In this document: one piece after another, positions 83 to 10,580 of the stretch | Numbering within the stretch: the first letter of the stretch is position 1 | Layout: the number at the start of each line of letters is the position of its first letter | Source: a virus | Reading direction: 5' to 3' (one strand) | Length of the DNA: 26,728 nt | Virus record (IMG/VR): IMGVR_UViG_3300042868_001914 | Span: 1 to 26,728 of that record | Made by a program: the position numbers and the translations under genes | Notes under the pieces: model-generated | The model's input: only the letters and a program-made list of their open reading frames with translations | The model's database searches: none | Told to the model about the DNA's origin: nothing

Positions 83-106
83 CTGTTAACATATTGTTAT
101 TAAATC

Positions 107-115
107 TGTGGATAA
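107..115 (-). promoter_or_regulatory. Consensus DnaA box
   Basis: TGTGGATAA is the exact reverse complement of the consensus DnaA box TTATCCACA. It lies in an AT-rich stretch next to short iterons, which suggests a replication origin or DnaA-responsive control region. Only one perfect copy is seen, so chance cannot be excluded. Confidence 0.45.
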
Positions 116-136
116 CTTTTTTGTTGTCATTATGCT

Positions 137-163
137 ATGTGGGCAATGTGGGCAATGTGGACC
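137..163. repeat. 9-bp tandem iterons
   Basis: ATGTGGGCA occurs twice in tandem (137-145, 146-154) and is followed by the diverged copy ATGTGGACC (155-163). An inverted relative, ACATTACCCACA, lies at 271-282 and differs from the complement of TGTGGGCAATGT at one base. Direct plus inverted copies beside a DnaA box resemble initiator-binding iterons. Confidence 0.5.
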
Positions 164-270
164 ATGGTTTAAAATCGCTCGACCCCAACGTGAGCGCAGC
201 CATATTCCTAACCCTATTATCATAATACTATCGTTTTAAACTTAAAAATCAGCTCAGCAGATTAACTGTC

Positions 271-282
271 ACATTACCCACA
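271..282 (-). repeat. Inverted copy of the iteron
   Basis: ACATTACCCACA reads TGTGGGTAATGT on the minus strand, matching the TGTGGGCAATGT iteron core at 138-149 and 147-158 in 11 of 12 bases. It probably binds the same protein, in the opposite orientation. Confidence 0.4.
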
Positions 283-380
283 AAATGTCAAAAGCCGCTC
301 GCAGACTAGGTTTCGCCGTGGGTCAAGAGGGGCGTTTTTTGGCGGCCACAATCCGCCCATTTCTGTCACAAAAAGACACA

Positions 381-415
381 AAAATAAATGCAAAACAATC
401 CTTGACATTTATTTT
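381..415. promoter_or_regulatory. 10-bp inverted repeat overlapping the early promoter
   Basis: AAAATAAATG at 381-390 is the exact reverse complement of CATTTATTTT at 406-415. The 15-bp spacer contains the start of the -35 box, and the right arm covers the end of the -35 box and half of the promoter spacer. A repressor bound here would block RNA polymerase, so this is a candidate operator for the early operon. Confidence 0.55.
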
Positions 416-429
416 GTTGTCGCTATAAT
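402..429 (+). promoter_or_regulatory. Consensus sigma-70 early promoter
   Basis: TTGACA at 402-407 and TATAAT at 424-429 match the bacterial housekeeping consensus exactly, with a 16-bp spacer. Transcription would start near 436, leaving a leader of about 65 nt before the first early gene at 500. A perfect-consensus promoter is typical of phage immediate-early transcription by host polymerase. Confidence 0.85.
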
Positions 430-1920: not shown

Positions 1921-4242
1921 TCACTTAACCAGTCGCACGGCTGACGGCGCCGGTGTTTCCTCGACCATGCGGCGCAGTTCTGATTTTGTGGCCGATTTGG
2001 CCAGCTCTGGCGCGCAGATAATGTGCTTACGGGCATCAAAGTCGCGCGATCGTAGCCGCCCCATGTCGACCCAGCCGGCCTCTTTCAGCGCGTGCAGTAG
2101 TGCCTGCTGAACGACCCGCGTGCCCATCGGCGCGCCACCTTGCAGCCGGTCACAGAGAGTATAGAACGGCGCGGCCACTACGCCGGTCGAGAATTCGCCC
2201 AAGCGGCGCTCGATCATCTCGACTAGATACGACTCAGCCGTTGACCTGCCCTGCTCGACCATGATGATCTTAGCCTCGGTCAATGGTGGAGTCGCCCCAG
2301 GGTTGAACTTGCTCACGTCACGCTCGTAGAGTACCTTGCACGCGGCTTCTAAGCCGCCGGATGCGTACCACTCCCAGAACACGCGGCCCTCGTCAATGGC
2401 CATCCTCGGCGCGGCAGAATACGTCACAAACCAGCGCCGATCTTCACTGGGCAATGACAGCGGCGCACGCTCATTTGAGAACGCCAGAACGAACACGCGG
2501 TTTAAAATGTCGTACGGGTGCAGGCCCTTGCGGTTGACCTGCAAAAACTCAGGCGGGGCGGCGATAATCGGCTTTAAGTTATTCTCGAGCGCGCGCCGGT
2601 CTTTCGATTCAGTCTCTTTCAGCTCTTCGAACACCATGATCTCAGACTCTAACGAATAGCCCCACTGAGACGTTATCTGCTCGTTCTTTAGGGTTTTGAC
2701 GTTCGCCTTACTTGCGCCGCCTACGCCCCACAATAGCGGCTCCCAGAGGGTATCTTTACCGCTACCCTGCACGCCCAGATGCAGCACCGCGTGATTGATC
2801 TTAACGTTCGGGTTTTTCAGTTTGTACGCCATCACGTCCAGTACGTGATTACGCTCGACAGGGTCAGGAAGCATATGCTCAACGTGGTCGAGCCATTTTT
2901 TCGGGCTGATCGTATTGGTCGGGATAACCGGACGGTGATTTTTCCAGCGGTTACCGTACGCCTGACCCTCACGCGATACCAGCACGTTTTCGCCAGCGGC
3001 ATAAGTGATGCCAGCTAACGTCAGCGCACCCTTTTTTTGGCGATTCTCATCAAAACAGATCGACGCTTCAATGCGGCGCTTCGTTTTGCCGGTGATGTGG
3101 ATGGAATGGCATAGGACGTGCCGGTACAGGGCGTTAAACCCTGCGCGGTCGATTTCGCGCCGCATTTCCATATCAAAAAATGAATCCTCGCTCAGAATGT
3201 AGGAAAAGCGCGTGTACCAGCCCTCTTTTTCGACCCGATCGAGCTGCTTTTTCTCAACTTCGGCGATCACTTCCGCACCCTTGTCGGGGTACTCGGCAGT
3301 CGGCTGCAGTTTGGATAGCGCCGTGTCCATCGCCTGCGCGAGTAGCTCTTCACGCAAGCCTGGCGAGTGCTTCGGCCCACCATTAGCCGATACCCAATCC
3401 AGAAACGCGTGCGAGTCGAAGTCCACGCAGTGCGAGTGCAGGCAGCGGTACGACCGCGTCGATGGACTGTAGCCGCCCTCAGGGTTGCCATCGGTGTGCT
3501 CGTCCTTGTTGGGGCAGATGACGCCTGCCCACCCGCGAGAATTCGGTGCCGACAGCAGCACGCCCTGACCGGATAGCCACGCCAGCACGTCATCGGCGCC
3601 ATCGTCGGATAAGCGGATAGGGCGCACGCCCAGCGATGACGGCTCGGAAGGGGTGACGCCCAGCGCCGTGCATATCTCGGCCAGCGTGTACTCACGCTCG
3701 GGGTGAAACTCGGTCAGCTGGGCGGCGAAGTTATCGCGCCCTGGCTTGATATTGATCGAGCCTGGCAAGCGGAAGTTACGCACGGCGTTATTGGCGCCTG
3801 GGTCGCAGTAGCCGGCCTTGATGATCGCGTCGATCGCGGCGGCGTACTCACCCTTGGTCGGCTGCTCGGAGAACGCGTAACCCCACTGGAACGACCCAGC
3901 AGACGTCTCAATGATCCATGTCGGCGGCAGGGGCGGGATGTTGGGCGCCTTCTCAGGATCGCCCACGTCATCCAACACCATGACCAGCACGTAATCGCAA
4001 TTGTCTTTGGATGCTGATACGTGCCCGTCCTTGAATCGATCGACAATGAATGACGCGGTGTTACCGTAGATCGCCCAATCGGGCTTAGTCGGATAGTCGG
4101 GCAGGTACGCCGGCCATGTGCAGATGACCGCGCCATCGGGGTGGAGCTGGATCTGACCGTTTTTGAGTTTCGGCTTCTGACGCACGACCAGTGCAGTCTC
4201 ACCCTGTGGTGCCAATTTGGTATAAAATTCGAGGAAATCCAT
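1921..4242 (-). CDS. RepB-type primase / D5-like superfamily 3 helicase
   Basis: A 773-aa replication protein that should prime DNA synthesis and unwind the fork. The N-terminal part (about 1-195) resembles RepB-type primases: an acidic LDDVGD cluster at 90-95, WIIETSAGSFQWGYAF from 109, and AVRNFRLPGSINIK at 153-166. A zinc-binding patch follows with Cys243, His249, Cys267, His271 and Cys272. The C-terminal helicase has Walker A LGVQGSGKDT (489-498), Walker B IMVFEE (535-540) and the conserved stretch FVLAFSNERAP (584-594), as in DUF5906-type primase-helicases. The start is supported by AAGGA upstream of the ATG. It is the last gene of the minus-strand replication operon, after the DNA polymerase gene. 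Confidence 0.9.
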   Translation of the reverse strand: MDFLEFYTKLAPQGETALVVRQKPKLKNGQIQLHPDGAVICTWPAYLPDYPTKPDWAIYGNTASFIVDRFKDGHVSASKDNCDYVLVMVLDDVGDPEKAPNIPPLPPTWIIETSAGSFQWGYAFSEQPTKGEYAAAIDAIIKAGYCDPGANNAVRNFRLPGSINIKPGRDNFAAQLTEFHPEREYTLAEICTALGVTPSEPSSLGVRPIRLSDDGADDVLAWLSGQGVLLSAPNSRGWAGVICPNKDEHTDGNPEGGYSPSTRSYRCLHSHCVDFDSHAFLDWVSANGGPKHSPGLREELLAQAMDTALSKLQPTAEYPDKGAEVIAEVEKKQLDRVEKEGWYTRFSYILSEDSFFDMEMRREIDRAGFNALYRHVLCHSIHITGKTKRRIEASICFDENRQKKGALTLAGITYAAGENVLVSREGQAYGNRWKNHRPVIPTNTISPKKWLDHVEHMLPDPVERNHVLDVMAYKLKNPNVKINHAVLHLGVQGSGKDTLWEPLLWGVGGASKANVKTLKNEQITSQWGYSLESEIMVFEELKETESKDRRALENNLKPIIAAPPEFLQVNRKGLHPYDILNRVFVLAFSNERAPLSLPSEDRRWFVTYSAAPRMAIDEGRVFWEWYASGGLEAACKVLYERDVSKFNPGATPPLTEAKIIMVEQGRSTAESYLVEMIERRLGEFSTGVVAAPFYTLCDRLQGGAPMGTRVVQQALLHALKEAGWVDMGRLRSRDFDARKHIICAPELAKSATKSELRRMVEETPAPSAVRLVK

Positions 4243-4288: not shown

Positions 4289-6230
4289 ATTTTCCGTACC
4301 GATTCATAGTTTCTACTTCAGCGGACAAAGGCAGTCCTGCCGCCCATTCGGGCGGGGTACACATCACTTGTTTCAGGGTATTGGGTGCATCAGGGTCGGC
4401 GGTCTCCAGCACAATTTCATCATGCACATGCAGCACGACATCATCGAGCTGGCGTAAAGCGTGCCGTAGCAGATCGTTGGCGACTGCTTGCGTTATATTC
4501 TCACAGGCGAGCCCGCGCCACAAGCGGGCACGCGGCCATTCGGTCGCATCCGCTGCCGGCTTCCATGCCGCCTTGACGTACGTAATCTCGTCACCCTCAA
4601 ACTTAGTAAATGGATAGCACAGGATGCGCCCACTGGGCAGCGCGTACCAGAGATGTTGTTTGTCATACAGGTAGGTGACCCGGCCGGCGGTAAACTCCCG
4701 CCCAGGATTCCTAAGCGCCCGCGTGTACGCCTCCTCGAGTTTCGTCCAGTAGCGCACGGCCCATGCGTTTGAGCGCCGCCATGCGTCTACAATCCGGCGC
4801 GAGTCCGACTCAGGCATGATGACGCCGTAATTGCGACCCATCGCACTGAAGGCGCCGATTGAGCCGCCAAAACCAAGGGATAGGATCGCGACCTTGCCGA
4901 TCTGGCGCTGGTCTTTGTCAACGCTATCCTCGGCAACCCGGTAGATGCCGGCGGCCTCACGCTTGTAGATGTCGCGACCATCGCGGAAAACCTGCAAGAC
5001 CTCGTCGGCCTGCGGGTCATTGGACGCCCAGGCTGTCACGCGTGCCTCGACCGCTGACCAGTCGGCGACAACGAACTGCTTGCCGGGCGCGGGTATCAGT
5101 GCGGGCCGGAGCATTCCTTTGAGAACATCTGTAATGCGTTTTCCAAATCTTGGGGTGATGCTGTGGCCTCTGACCATAGCGTGCCTAACATCATCTGGCT
5201 CTGCGGCACACTTGCGCGTGAAGTTGTGAACTTGCGCGCCATAGCTTGAAGCACGTCCGGTGGCAGAGCCTCCTGCAAATACGAAAGCACCTCGTACTCG
5301 GTGATCGTCTTCATCTGCCAAGCCCGCAAGGCGGCTGAACTTCGCAACTGACGACGCCCAGAGGTCATCCGCGCATTGAATGACGTCCGCAACATGGGCC
5401 GGAATTTCTTCATGGTTTTCCTCGGCAAAAACTAACAAATTGGCGCGTACTGACTTGTCGATACTGTACTTCTGCTCGCCGTCCTTGTACACCTCCATCA
5501 TCTTCAAAGCCTGCGGCCCGACTCTGTCCATCACCCACTGTTTCATCTTGGGGCTCCTGACGGACTTGATCTCGCCCTTGGTCAGGTCGGCAACCAGCGT
5601 CTCGATCTCTTCAAGCTCAACAGATGCGTAGCGCACCGCTGCGTGAGCCAGCGGCAAGTCAAGCAGCACGCCACGGTCGTTGATGCGCTCGTTCACATGG
5701 TAGTCGGCCAGCTCTTGATCTGACAATGGCCGCATGGCTTGGCTGACTGCGCGCATGGTTCTGACGTCCTGCTCGCAGTACGCTACCATCTCGGCCATTA
5801 ACGCAGCGTCAGTGTTAAAAGTTCCGTCGGTGCGGGGAATGCTAAGCGCGCGGATAAGTTGATTTCCACGGTGGTCTTTTCGCATGTTGCTGGAGATCGC
5901 TCGCCCGACGTCTTCGAGGCTGCCAGGTAAGCAGTTAGCACGCGCTTGTGTAGCGGTGCAGTAGAACTGCTCGAGTTGAAAGTTACAGTGTAGGACGTAC
6001 CAAAAAATGAGGCGCTCAAAAGCGGCGTTATGCGCGCATATTTGCCCTGTGTGCTGACGTACCACATCGGGGAACGGCTGATCGGGAGTCCAGGTGACAA
6101 CCTCATCGTCGTCAAACGCGTAGGACATACACAGTACATCTGTACTTGCGTCTTGTGCATAGTTGTAAACCCCTTTAGAGGACAGGTCGCATCGGCTGCG
6201 ACTTTCAAAATCAATCCACAAAATAGTCAT
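4287..6230 (-). CDS. Phage DNA polymerase, family A, with 3'-5' exonuclease
   Basis: Replicative or repair polymerase of 647 aa from the chosen ATG. The N-terminal DnaQ-like proofreading domain has motif I IDFES (Asp7, Glu9), motif II AHNAAFE (about 66-72) and motif III YCEQD (Tyr151, Asp155). The polymerase domain has motif A VADWSAVEAR (catalytic Asp390), motif B RQIGKVAILSLGFGG (442-456) and motif C HVHDEIVLE (Asp604). There is no 5'-3' exonuclease domain. An in-frame TTG at 6251 would add seven residues; the ATG at 6230 is preferred because it places the family-typical MTILWIDFES at the N-terminus. Neither start has a clear ribosome-binding site; it overlaps the methyltransferase gene by 20 bp, so coupling is likely. 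Motif B has Phe in LGFGG, where I expect Tyr in many relatives. Confidence 0.93.
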   Translation of the reverse strand: MTILWIDFESRSRCDLSSKGVYNYAQDASTDVLCMSYAFDDDEVVTWTPDQPFPDVVRQHTGQICAHNAAFERLIFWYVLHCNFQLEQFYCTATQARANCLPGSLEDVGRAISSNMRKDHRGNQLIRALSIPRTDGTFNTDAALMAEMVAYCEQDVRTMRAVSQAMRPLSDQELADYHVNERINDRGVLLDLPLAHAAVRYASVELEEIETLVADLTKGEIKSVRSPKMKQWVMDRVGPQALKMMEVYKDGEQKYSIDKSVRANLLVFAEENHEEIPAHVADVIQCADDLWASSVAKFSRLAGLADEDDHRVRGAFVFAGGSATGRASSYGAQVHNFTRKCAAEPDDVRHAMVRGHSITPRFGKRITDVLKGMLRPALIPAPGKQFVVADWSAVEARVTAWASNDPQADEVLQVFRDGRDIYKREAAGIYRVAEDSVDKDQRQIGKVAILSLGFGGSIGAFSAMGRNYGVIMPESDSRRIVDAWRRSNAWAVRYWTKLEEAYTRALRNPGREFTAGRVTYLYDKQHLWYALPSGRILCYPFTKFEGDEITYVKAAWKPAADATEWPRARLWRGLACENITQAVANDLLRHALRQLDDVVLHVHDEIVLETADPDAPNTLKQVMCTPPEWAAGLPLSAEVETMNRYGK

Positions 6231-7098
6231 AGTCAATGATGGCGCGGCCAATTAGTTCAGGGATTTGAGGCACAACGGCATTGCCTAGCTGTTTAAGTCT
6301 GTCCACCCTTCCGGGAATCCCATGAGCCACTCGACCCACGTTGGGTTCAGTTGCCCAGAGTGCGGCGACACGACCATACTGAGATTCAACTGCTTTCCCA
6401 TTGACAACCGACGTTGTATGCTGGAGTTGCTCAGATTGCCGCGATCTCGATGATCTGATGCCTGTGGGGTAGGCCACAATTTCTGCTGCACTTCTTTGAA
6501 TGTGCGCCCCCAAGTCACTTGATCCCGAAGATTGGACGGCGATGTTCGCCCCGGCCTGACTACTGTCATTTCCTTGATTATGGCTTTCGGTGTCTTCGGC
6601 GCTATTCCATCCATTGTTGTGGGGGTAGGCCACGATCCAGATTCTATCCCTTTGATGAGCCGCGCCGACGGCTGAAGCGGGTATACAGTGCCATTCCGCG
6701 CTATACCCGATCTCAGCGAGGCTCCAGAGAACTTGATCCAATCCTCTAGAGCGAAGGGCTGCAACGTTTTCGATGATGACGTAACGCGGGTGGATTTCTT
6801 CGATGAGGCGGCGGTATTCGTACCAGAGTCCTGATCGTTCGCCAGCAAGCCCGGCGCCTTTTCCGGCGAGGCTGATGTCTTGGCAGGGGAATCCTCCGCA
6901 GATAACGTCAACGGTTTCATGTATGTCCTTGGCGGTAAGAGTTTTAACATCTTCAAAAATTGGCACATCAGGCCAGTGCTTTTTAAGCACACGTCGGCAG
7001 GCGGGGTCAACTTCGCAGAACGCAATTGTTTGCATACCTGCGCGTTCAAGCCCTAGCGAAAACCCTCCAATGCCGGAGAATAGATCGAGGATATTCAT
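6211..7098 (-). CDS. C5 cytosine-specific DNA methyltransferase
   Basis: Transfers a methyl group from S-adenosylmethionine to carbon 5 of cytosine in a specific DNA sequence. All key motifs are present in 295 aa: motif I DLFSGIGG (5-12), motif IV GGFPCQDISLAGKG (catalytic Cys72), motif VI ENV (110-112), motif VIII QRDRIWI (149-155), and C-terminal RVAHGIPGRVDRLKQLGNAVVPQ with Asn273 of motif X. The region between VIII and the C-terminus (about 160-245) is the target-recognition segment and is short and low in complexity. No partner restriction enzyme is visible, so self-modification against host restriction is the likely role. It follows the DUF2815-position gene by 154 nt and overlaps the polymerase gene. 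A second frame inside it also looks coding. Confidence 0.95.
   Translation of the reverse strand: MNILDLFSGIGGFSLGLERAGMQTIAFCEVDPACRRVLKKHWPDVPIFEDVKTLTAKDIHETVDVICGGFPCQDISLAGKGAGLAGERSGLWYEYRRLIEEIHPRYVIIENVAALRSRGLDQVLWSLAEIGYSAEWHCIPASAVGAAHQRDRIWIVAYPHNNGWNSAEDTESHNQGNDSSQAGANIAVQSSGSSDLGAHIQRSAAEIVAYPTGIRSSRSRQSEQLQHTTSVVNGKAVESQYGRVAALWATEPNVGRVAHGIPGRVDRLKQLGNAVVPQIPELIGRAIIDYDYFVD
6285..6920 (-). CDS. Candidate gene nested in the methyltransferase gene in another frame
   Basis: A long alternate frame lies wholly inside the methyltransferase gene; it is open from a possible start at 7049 (254 codons). The ATG at 6920 has an AAGGA site five bases upstream and gives 211 aa. The protein contains FSGASLRSGIARNGTVYPL, then SWPTPTTMDG and LWPTPQASDH, and ends LNPTWVEWLMGFPEGWTDLN. 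From memory, this order of motifs (SG..RSG...NG..Y.L, repeated WPTP..SD, NPTWVEWLMGFP.GWT) recurs in phage proteins that are annotated independently. The same DNA also encodes intact methyltransferase motifs VIII to X, so both frames look constrained. Function unknown. The alternative is that the similarity is only an echo of conserved methyltransferase codons. Confidence 0.4.
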   Translation of the reverse strand: MKPLTLSAEDSPAKTSASPEKAPGLLANDQDSGTNTAASSKKSTRVTSSSKTLQPFALEDWIKFSGASLRSGIARNGTVYPLQPSARLIKGIESGSWPTPTTMDGIAPKTPKAIIKEMTVVRPGRTSPSNLRDQVTWGRTFKEVQQKLWPTPQASDHRDRGNLSNSSIQRRLSMGKQLNLSMVVSPHSGQLNPTWVEWLMGFPEGWTDLNS

Positions 7099-9118: not shown

Positions 9119-9412
9119 ATGCTTGAAAAAGAAATCGAAAACTATTTTGTCTGGACAGTCGAGCGTGCGGGCGGCAAGACGTACAAGTTCAAGTCTGTCA
9201 CACAGCGCGGGGTTAGTGACCGCTTAGCTTGTATGCCTGATGGATCAACGTGGTTTGTGGAGTTGAAAGCGCCCAAAGGTCGGCTGTCTGAGTTGCAAAA
9301 ACATTTTCGCAACGACGTGTTGCGATTGAAACAAAATTACGCGTGTTTATGGTCGACGGAGATGATTGATGAGTGGATTAAAGCTGCGCCCCTACCAGGA
9401 CGAAGCGGCTGA
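9119..9412 (+). CDS. VRR-NUC domain nuclease
   Basis: A 97-aa minimal VRR-NUC protein, a PD-(D/E)XK nuclease class acting on branched or structured DNA. Motifs: N-terminal LEKEIENYF (Glu4), GVSDRLA (Asp34), FVELKAP (Glu48, Lys50) and LQ at 59-60. Upstream alternatives TTG 9098 and ATG 9101 lie inside the predicted promoter and lack a ribosome-binding site. The ATG at 9119 matches the family-typical beginning and the predicted transcript start. Its 3' end overlaps the helicase gene by 44 bp. With the SNF2 helicase it forms a nuclease-helicase pair common in phage replication modules, probably for processing recombination intermediates. Confidence 0.88.
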   Translation: MLEKEIENYFVWTVERAGGKTYKFKSVTQRGVSDRLACMPDGSTWFVELKAPKGRLSELQKHFRNDVLRLKQNYACLWSTEMIDEWIKAAPLPGRSG

Positions 9413-10580
9413 CTTCCTGTACGAGCGCGATCGGGCAATGATCTTGGCGCCTGTGGGTGCAGGCAAGACGGCCATCACGCTGACCGCAATGCAGGCAATG
9501 GTGAAGGACGGGTACGCCAGTCGTTTCCTTGTCTTAGCGCCAAAGCGTGTCTGCACGGACGTGTGGCCCATCGAGGCCCGCAAGTGGGCACTCGAGTTGC
9601 ACTGCCGCACAGCCGTGGGCACACCCCGCAGTCGAGGCGAGGCGCTGGACTCCGACGCCCACATCGTGGCGACCAACTACGACAATATTGGCTGGCTGGC
9701 CGAGCAAGACCTGTCGACCTTCGACGCGATCGTGTTCGACGAACTGACCAAACTAAAGAACCCGTCAGGCACACGCTTTAAAGCCCTGCACAAGATCATC
9801 GACCAGTTCAAGATACGCTGGGGTCTGACAGGCTCATTCACCAGTAACGGTCTGGAAGACGTCTTCGGTCAGTGCAAGATCGTGGACGAGAAGCTGCTTG
9901 GCCGCGCCAAAGGCGCCTTCTTGCAGCAATACTTCGTCTGCATGAACCGCGACTTTGGCGAGTGGTTGCCACGCCCAGGCGCCCTGCCGTTAGTCATGCA
10001 GCGCATCAAGCCGGCCACCTACGTCTTGGAGCCAGGCGAGTACAAGGACAAGCTGCCCGAGTGCCATGTGGTCGAGCTGCGCTGTCAGCTGGATGACCGC
10101 GCGCCATACGAGAAGATGAAAAAGGATTTTGTGGTGCAGTTTCCGACTGCGGAAATATTGGCGGCGAACGCAGCAGCCGTTACATCAAAGTTGCAACAGA
10201 TGGCGTCTGGCTTTGTGTACGACAGCAGCCGGGTGGCATCCGACGTGCCGGGTCAGTTCATTAACAGCAAGACGGCAGTATGGTTTAGCGGGCACAAGTT
10301 TGACAGGTTAGACGAACTACTGGAGGAGAATCAACATGCGAATACGCTTCTTGTTTACCAGTTTCAGGAGGAGGTGGCGGAACTTCGTCGCCGCTATCCG
10401 AAGCTTGCCACCCTCGACGACCCCGACGCCATCAAGCGATGGAACGCAGGCCAAATCGAACTCCTCGCTGTACATCCCAAATCAGCCGGGCATGGCCTTA
10501 ACCTACAGCACGGGGGAAGCCACATGGTATTTCTGTCGTTGCCGTGGAGCCTGGAGCTGAACGAGCAATCTCCGACATAG
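9369..10580 (+). CDS. SNF2-family helicase/translocase, lacking motif VI
   Basis: 403 aa from ATG 9369, which has GGAG seven bases upstream; an in-frame TTG at 9366 would add one residue. Motifs: LRPYQ (6-10), Walker A APVGAGKT (27-34), DELT at 124-127 in place of DEAH, and LTGS (153-156). The second RecA-like lobe is present through AGHGLNLQHG and LPWSLELNEQ. The protein then stops after SPT. Relatives continue with a motif VI of the form GRLHRSGQ, whose arginines contact ATP. No such sequence is found downstream in any frame I read; the next gene begins 16 bp later. It is therefore probably a 3'-truncated helicase, perhaps inactive as an ATPase, or completed by another protein. Confidence 0.85.
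   Translation: MSGLKLRPYQDEAADFLYERDRAMILAPVGAGKTAITLTAMQAMVKDGYASRFLVLAPKRVCTDVWPIEARKWALELHCRTAVGTPRSRGEALDSDAHIVATNYDNIGWLAEQDLSTFDAIVFDELTKLKNPSGTRFKALHKIIDQFKIRWGLTGSFTSNGLEDVFGQCKIVDEKLLGRAKGAFLQQYFVCMNRDFGEWLPRPGALPLVMQRIKPATYVLEPGEYKDKLPECHVVELRCQLDDRAPYEKMKKDFVVQFPTAEILAANAAAVTSKLQQMASGFVYDSSRVASDVPGQFINSKTAVWFSGHKFDRLDELLEENQHANTLLVYQFQEEVAELRRRYPKLATLDDPDAIKRWNAGQIELLAVHPKSAGHGLNLQHGGSHMVFLSLPWSLELNEQSPT

Follow-up and report, generated by a model that had tools for sequence, protein, structure and literature searches.

Where does this phage begin to copy its DNA? The window, as we call the whole stretch of DNA analysed here, comprises 26,728 bases of virus record IMGVR_UViG_3300042868_001914 and is probably a fragment, since the longest contigs of its near relatives reach about 36-38 kb. 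The families it encodes include, by name, head closure, DNA ejection and endolysin, and its minus strand carries a primase-helicase (773 aa) and an A-family DNA polymerase, the two enzymes from which a first-pass annotation had argued that an origin should be expected somewhere, together with a C5 cytosine methyltransferase and a PD-(D/E)XK nuclease. A helicase gene lies at 9366-10580, and the methyltransferase gene (6211-7098) is found amid the replication genes. The same annotation had proposed a candidate replication origin near the start of the window, and this is supported as the best reading of the sequences by the layout of the stretch, the conservation of that layout and the covariation of its iterons with the wing of the primase-helicase. 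The stretch is very probably the place where the phage begins DNA copying, and the sequence comparisons suggest that the primase-helicase recognises it via a few residues at the tip of one loop. Its parts are as follows.

11-26 and 34-49, no strand assigned: two palindromes GTTAGTNNNNACTAAC, adjoining the origin.
107-115, minus strand: DnaA box TTATCCACA, exact, a single copy in 26,728 bases.
137-145, 146-154 and 155-163, plus strand: tandem iterons ATGTGGGCA, ATGTGGGCA and ATGTGGACC, direct 9-bp repeats free of spacers.
164-270, no strand assigned: AT-rich spacer (61.7% AT, 74.5% in 200-250) separating direct from inverted iterons.
271-282, minus strand: inverted iteron TGTGGGTAATGT, with one mismatch.
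317-324, plus strand: further iteron-like copy CGTGGGTC; several relatives have their own word at the corresponding place.
402-429, plus strand: promoter-like TTGACA-16-TATAAT, a perfect sigma-70 consensus match only, upstream of small frames starting at 500.

The elements described at first pass, namely an exact DnaA box, two tandem 9-bp iterons with a diverged third and an inverted iteron with one mismatch, were thus all recovered, as was their AT-rich, gene-free setting: 90-300 is 61.6% AT compared with 45.9% for the window, a value equalled or surpassed by 0.2% of 211-bp windows (step 20), and the first 499 bases are gene-free, the first listed open frame of at least 60 aa beginning at 500. 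Taken alone, the exact DnaA box is weak evidence (at least one copy in 15 of 100 shuffles). The 18-mer ATGTGGGCAATGTGGGCA, allowing up to 3 mismatches, has 2 matches against 0.07 expected, a count reached in 1 of 100 shuffles, and TGTGGGCAATGT, allowing up to one mismatch, has 3 matches in the window, every one of them in this stretch, a trio that none of 100 shuffles reached. The 7-mer TGTGGG[CT] is unselective by count (11 window matches, 3 in this stretch), so that clustering and symmetry carry the signal. A repeat search returned the same three 9-bp repeats in another register (134-142, 143-151 and 152-160). Chance was rejected as an explanation on the basis of the shuffle counts and of the box frequency in the flanks of relatives given below. 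The spacer at 164-270 is a candidate unwinding region.

The palindromes recur in relatives, with at least one exact copy, and often several, in 29 of 41 loci (L002-L042). They are flanked (for example at 12844-12929 in L013) by the DnaA box on one side and by a conserved GC-rich stretch on the other; past that stretch comes a 149-aa frame with no family match and, farther along in L013, a terminase large subunit gene. They may be packaging sites or repressor operators. Four contigs (the window, L005, L006 and L017) terminate within or beside the palindrome array, which reflects either assembly repeat collapse or a true genome end.

Relatives were collected in four scans with the primase as query, which gave at least the loci L002-L211, among which the same contig sometimes appears in different cuts. 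Among the matches listed there were 180 unique loci (the window included), 97 of which passed an automated iteron detector that is blind to the protein; the final protein pattern missed one locus (L201), and two earlier patterns had missed 47 and 27. We call near relatives those with at least 70% primase identity, again including the window. A search of genome contigs found 10 loci, of which 9 belong to metagenome bins from mixed phyla and the last, at 30% identity, to a Methylomonas chromosome.

In the near relatives inspected, the order of elements is constant, running from the box through the tandem and the AT-rich spacer to the inverted copies and then the further copy; the inverted iterons stand at similar distances, and in some of these relatives the spacer is longer or altered. 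In five loci (L004, L016, L021, L058 and L126) the interval that separates the direct from the inverted iterons is longer and altered, and TTTAAAATC segments recur in it. The distance from the tandem to the primase stop is at least 1,450 bases in the 97 origins (median 2,730), with small frames in between. Distant relatives keep the iteron layout, and there the exact DnaA box is mostly missing: counted within -150 to +260 of the tandem iterons of detector-passing origins, 24 of 27 near relatives have it, usually 30-41 bases ahead of the tandem, as against 8 of 70 distant ones. Elsewhere in the flanks of the 97 loci, 482,389 bases held 3 exact boxes. The near relatives, together with the three DnaA boxes of L074, are what would be expected of a host-type origin opened by DnaA, at which the phage iterons serve copy control only; this we regard as highly improbable, since 62 of the 70 distant relatives have no exact box near their iterons. 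DnaA therefore looks accessory. A GC-skew check, proposed at first pass, found no cumulative extreme at the origin in four relatives of 37-38 kb, the window itself beginning too near the origin for such a plot; we treat this as neutral because gene orientation drives skew too.

The first-pass annotation had also looked to conservation of the iterons in relatives, and here the outcome was divided, in that the layout is kept and the word is not. The iteron word varies by genome (TGTGGGC, TGTGGGT, TGTGGAC, TGTTGGC, TGTAGGC, TGTTAGT, TGAGGGC and others), whereas the copies inside one genome mostly agree. We therefore searched for a protein that follows the word. In the alignment of the primase-helicases, a segment of the form GR-L/I-x-S/T-R alters with the iteron class, and when 37 near loci were classed by hand, primase column 731 came out on top, with a normalised information of 0.75 (next column, 0.46). 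This segment lies near the C-terminus of the protein, for which the relevant features are these.

1921-4242, minus strand: primase-helicase of 773 aa (DUF5906/SF3), the proposed origin-binding initiator.
2014-2241, minus strand: predicted C-terminal winged helix, residues 668-743, from AlphaFold models and fold comparison.
2029-2052, minus strand: wing loop, residues 731-738 (here R731 and D736), the proposed specificity residues.

The protein has a DUF5906 match above cut-off, and NrS-1 is the only solved relative found by profile search (6k9c, 6k9e; profile positions 459-660; E 1.2e-10). The PHROG families that bear the name DNA primase cover the helicase part alone (residues 435-692 or less), and a RepB_primase match at 90-168 falls below the Pfam cut-off. 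The full model has a mean pLDDT of 81 and a pTM of 0.41; its fold matches, with TM-scores of about 0.5 or less, include NrS-1, MPXV E5/D5, PriRep1 (7pds) and the SaPI5 primase-helicase (7ola), and in the N-terminal part there is a likeness to the AEP domain of S-2L PrimPol (6zp9), at rank 44. A separate model of residues 645-773 reaches a pTM of 0.71 with a core pLDDT above 90. Both models predict a helix, a short strand, two further helices and a hairpin (strands 725-730 and 739-743), whose loop, 731-738, would be the wing. Fold matches of the domain are weak (best Z 6.0; no Foldseek E below 0.001), and many of the best are winged helices. The C-terminus is thus predicted to be a winged-helix DNA-binding domain. 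The helix that would usually do the reading (712-721) holds several invariant residues (A714, L715, H717, A718 and E721), which would fit a mode of reading by the wing, as in RFX1. Identity between primases is uneven: the window and L004 are 94-100% identical in residues 1-350, 60-78% in 351-650 and 98-100% thereafter, and compared with L004 and L005 per 50-residue block the window gives 88-100% in 1-350 and 651-773 and 60-78% in 351-650, a mosaic pattern that is a sign of recombination.

All covariation counts that follow rest on the automated set rather than on the hand-made classes. Controlling for primase distance over residues 1-690 in the 97 origins, R731 and D736 had the highest partial correlations with origin distance among 555 columns (0.62 and 0.61, against 0.40 for the next column); with base 4 of the word taken alone, the values were 0.69 at 731 and 0.60 at 736 (next, 0.31). 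Lysine or arginine at 731 goes with G at base 4 in 62 of 62 origins, and alanine, methionine or glycine with A or T in 30 of 35; the exceptions, with G at base 4, are L058, L119, L121, L191 and L198, of which L119 and L121 are mixed. These associations recur across the phylogeny. On a tree built from residues 1-640, and thus excluding the C-terminal part, the minimum number of changes is 17 for base 4, 16 for residue 731 and 22 for residue 736. Among the 13 independent pairs on supported branches, 731 changed in the same direction as base 4 in 10.5 on average and in the opposite direction in none (median p 0.001), and 736 did so in 10.4, again with none opposite (median p 0.002). Over 443 variable columns the net score was 9.8 for 736 and 9.5 for 731, followed by 4.4 for 737, with a median of 0.83. 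As a control we used the polymerase, which has a long match in 65 of the 97 loci; on these, the best of its 325 columns scored 3.4, and columns 731 and 736 of the primase-helicase scored 6.6 and 6.1. The switch can be seen even between close kin, as L010 and L017, 95.9% identical in residues 1-640, pair LKSREFDTRKHI with TGTGGGC and LASREHSTKKHI with TGTTGGC, respectively.

Such covariation could in principle be mere linkage between two parts of a genome that travel together. The primases are indeed mosaic, as in the comparison of the window with L004, and a tree of the C-terminal region itself (600-727 plus 745-769) leaves 6 supported pairs, 4.2 of them changing the same way and none the opposite way, with p 0.125, significance being lost because too few pairs are supported. 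Linkage would be expected to lift neighbouring columns as well, but the remaining variable columns from residue 650 onwards have a mean of 1.17 (maximum 4.0, n=62) compared with 0.93 elsewhere (n=371), far from the scores of 731 and 736; moreover, L023 and L025 are 97.4% identical in 600-727 plus 745-769 and yet differ in both wing and iteron. We accordingly think linkage very unlikely to be the explanation. Instead, origin specificity appears from these comparisons to follow the C-terminal domain, which lends indirect support to the suggestion, made at first pass, that the primase might bind the region.

For loci outside the detector set, we used a crude word count. Of the 180 unique loci, 83 failed the detector, and 69 of these, having at least 2.5 kb of sequence, were scored in this way: the word type agreed with the residue for 30 of 35 loci with K or R and 20 of 26 with A, M or G, and 8 loci with N, H or L gave 2 G-type, 2 A/T-type and 4 ties. 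The base-4 prediction was then fixed beforehand for a hold-out drawn from three further scans, which returned at least 92 loci; the C-terminus was unreadable in 6 of these, 16 had been seen already and 70 were new, with 33 passing the detector. Among the passing loci, K went with G in 16 of 16, which do not amount to 16 events because many are near kin, and A or M with A/T in 3 of 3, the match in L279 looking spurious. Residues beyond the prediction gave H with G in 8 of 8, S with G in 4 and with C in 1, and G with G in 1. Among the non-passing loci long enough to be scored, K fitted in 6 of 6 and M in 5 of 6, but, against the prediction, A731 did so in just 2 of 10 (8 G-type, 2 A/T-type). The A731 wings that failed the detector in the hold-out, 12 in number, are all AAQ or AAH, and for these wings either the rule is inapplicable or the crude count fails. 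L239, 63.6% identical to L019, has M731 with TGTTAGT, as does L019.

For the other bases the correspondence is narrower. In the first set, S732 is paired with T at base 3 in 95 of 95 origins; the association at base 3 depends on two loci there, and S754 scores level with S732. Over both sets, 8 of the 9 origins with T732 (detector score of at least 7, with L238 and L240 outside the phase filter) have A or C at this base, the exception being L258. Bases 5 and 7 showed no clear wing partner (top columns A593 and R729), and a full code is therefore not claimed. The wing of the window is that of L002, L005 and L040, yet it goes with TGTGGGC here and with TGTGGGT in those loci, so that the last bases are unexplained by the wing. 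Likewise, the wings of L182 and L184 are identical but their iterons read AGGT and TGGC, and A731 thus fails to separate A from T. As read from these sequences, the rule covers base 4 well for common wings and base 3 on few origins, and nothing further.

Would the same repeats serve as operators for the early promoter at 402-429, bound by the primase-helicase or by a protein of the same specificity, with replication beginning elsewhere? Iteron copies do lie between the DnaA box and this perfect promoter match, the closest of them some 80 bases ahead of the -35 element. We consider such a purely regulatory role unlikely, as the protein singled out by the covariation is the replicative helicase itself, encoded on the opposite strand, and an AT-rich spacer flanked by opposed iterons, together with a conserved DnaA box, has the anatomy of an origin; operator and origin roles can also coexist.

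From the layout, conservation and residue-base covariation observed here, and the fold and wing position predicted by the models, we consider it highly likely that 107-324 is the replication origin and that the C-terminal winged helix of the primase-helicase reads its iterons by the wing, with melting, loading and priming to follow. We infer the following course of events. The primase-helicase would bind the 9-bp iterons flanking the AT-rich spacer through its winged helix, the variable bases of TG-T-NNNN being read mainly by the wing tip (731, 736 and probably 732). Initiators assembled on the opposed iteron sets would then open the spacer, after which the initiator, loaded as a ring helicase, would supply primers to the phage-encoded A-family polymerase, so that replication would start at this stretch. 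Host DnaA, bound beside the iterons, probably assists in this clade.

The repeated joint switching of iteron word and wing makes origin specificity an evolving trait of this phage group. More tentatively, a wing code of this kind, in which 731 and 736 would set base 4 and 732 would set base 3, might allow specificity to change in a few steps and replication types to co-exist that perhaps do not share origins; satellites, competing phages or defence, mimicking or targeting the origin, could drive the switching. Iteron-reading replication initiators are well known. What is hard to see in nature is a joint change of specificity in origin and initiator that does not kill the replicon, and these related phages form a natural series of it, with close primases, differing wings, matching iterons and at least 16 changes on the tree. 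What the series offers is a rule from residue to base that can be put to the test, a means of using primase sequences to search unassigned phages for their origins, and natural material for the study of replication incompatibility between phages. For the ICP1 Odn nuclease and PLE RepA it is described that antagonistic selection can act on iteron specificity (PMC8263062); PLE RepA differs from the present initiator in belonging, as described, to the RepA_N family (PMC7145576) and in its iterons of about 30 bp.

Among the literature titles found, none concerned the origin of this phage group or a wing code for such initiators, and the closest known systems are initiators of other replicons. P4 alpha, as described, combines in a single polypeptide a primase of the Toprim type, a helicase and a winged helix by which the repeats of its origin are bound (PMC4234260). 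The protein described here, a primase-helicase with a predicted winged helix in one polypeptide, resembles it by description, but its N-terminal part is instead like the AEP domain of S-2L PrimPol (6zp9). The P4 origin-binding domain was not among the matches listed in our fold searches, which is no argument against kinship. For SaPI Rep (SaPI5) and SCCmec Cch2, both D5-related helicases, the C-terminal domain is reported to recognise the iterons of the element's own origin (PMC7581432), and C-terminal recognition of its own iterons is what we propose for the present D5-related helicase; an A-family polymerase gene is associated here too, as with Cch2 and CCPol. The SaPI origin lies directly downstream of rep, whereas this origin lies about 1.6 kb from the primase stop, and the DnaA box, the spacer-free 9-bp iterons and the setting in a phage genome instead of an island are further differences from SaPI Rep and Cch2. 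The accessible part of that paper (PMC7581432) gave no residue-level code for either protein. Residues 618-718 of the NrS-1 primase-polymerase-helicase align to the winged helix (Z 4.2), and the portions of the literature on NrS-1 available to us made no mention of origin or iteron recognition by its C-terminal domain. RFX1 is described as recognising the major groove with its wing and not its helix (PMC4333399), a likeness for the wing reading proposed here, in which contact is suggested by covariation; for the related D5 C-terminal domain, a match to RFX1 has been called not necessarily significant and the helix orientation not conserved (PMC9611036). By analogy, the proposed route of binding, opening, loading and priming would resemble that of P4 alpha and, in part, SaPI Rep, as far as these are described (PMC4234260, PMC7581432). 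The best reading of the sequences is thus an origin like those of P4 alpha and SaPI Rep, read via the wing of its initiator and repeatedly switched in specificity: a known kind of replicon, whose interest is that this switching can be traced residue by residue.
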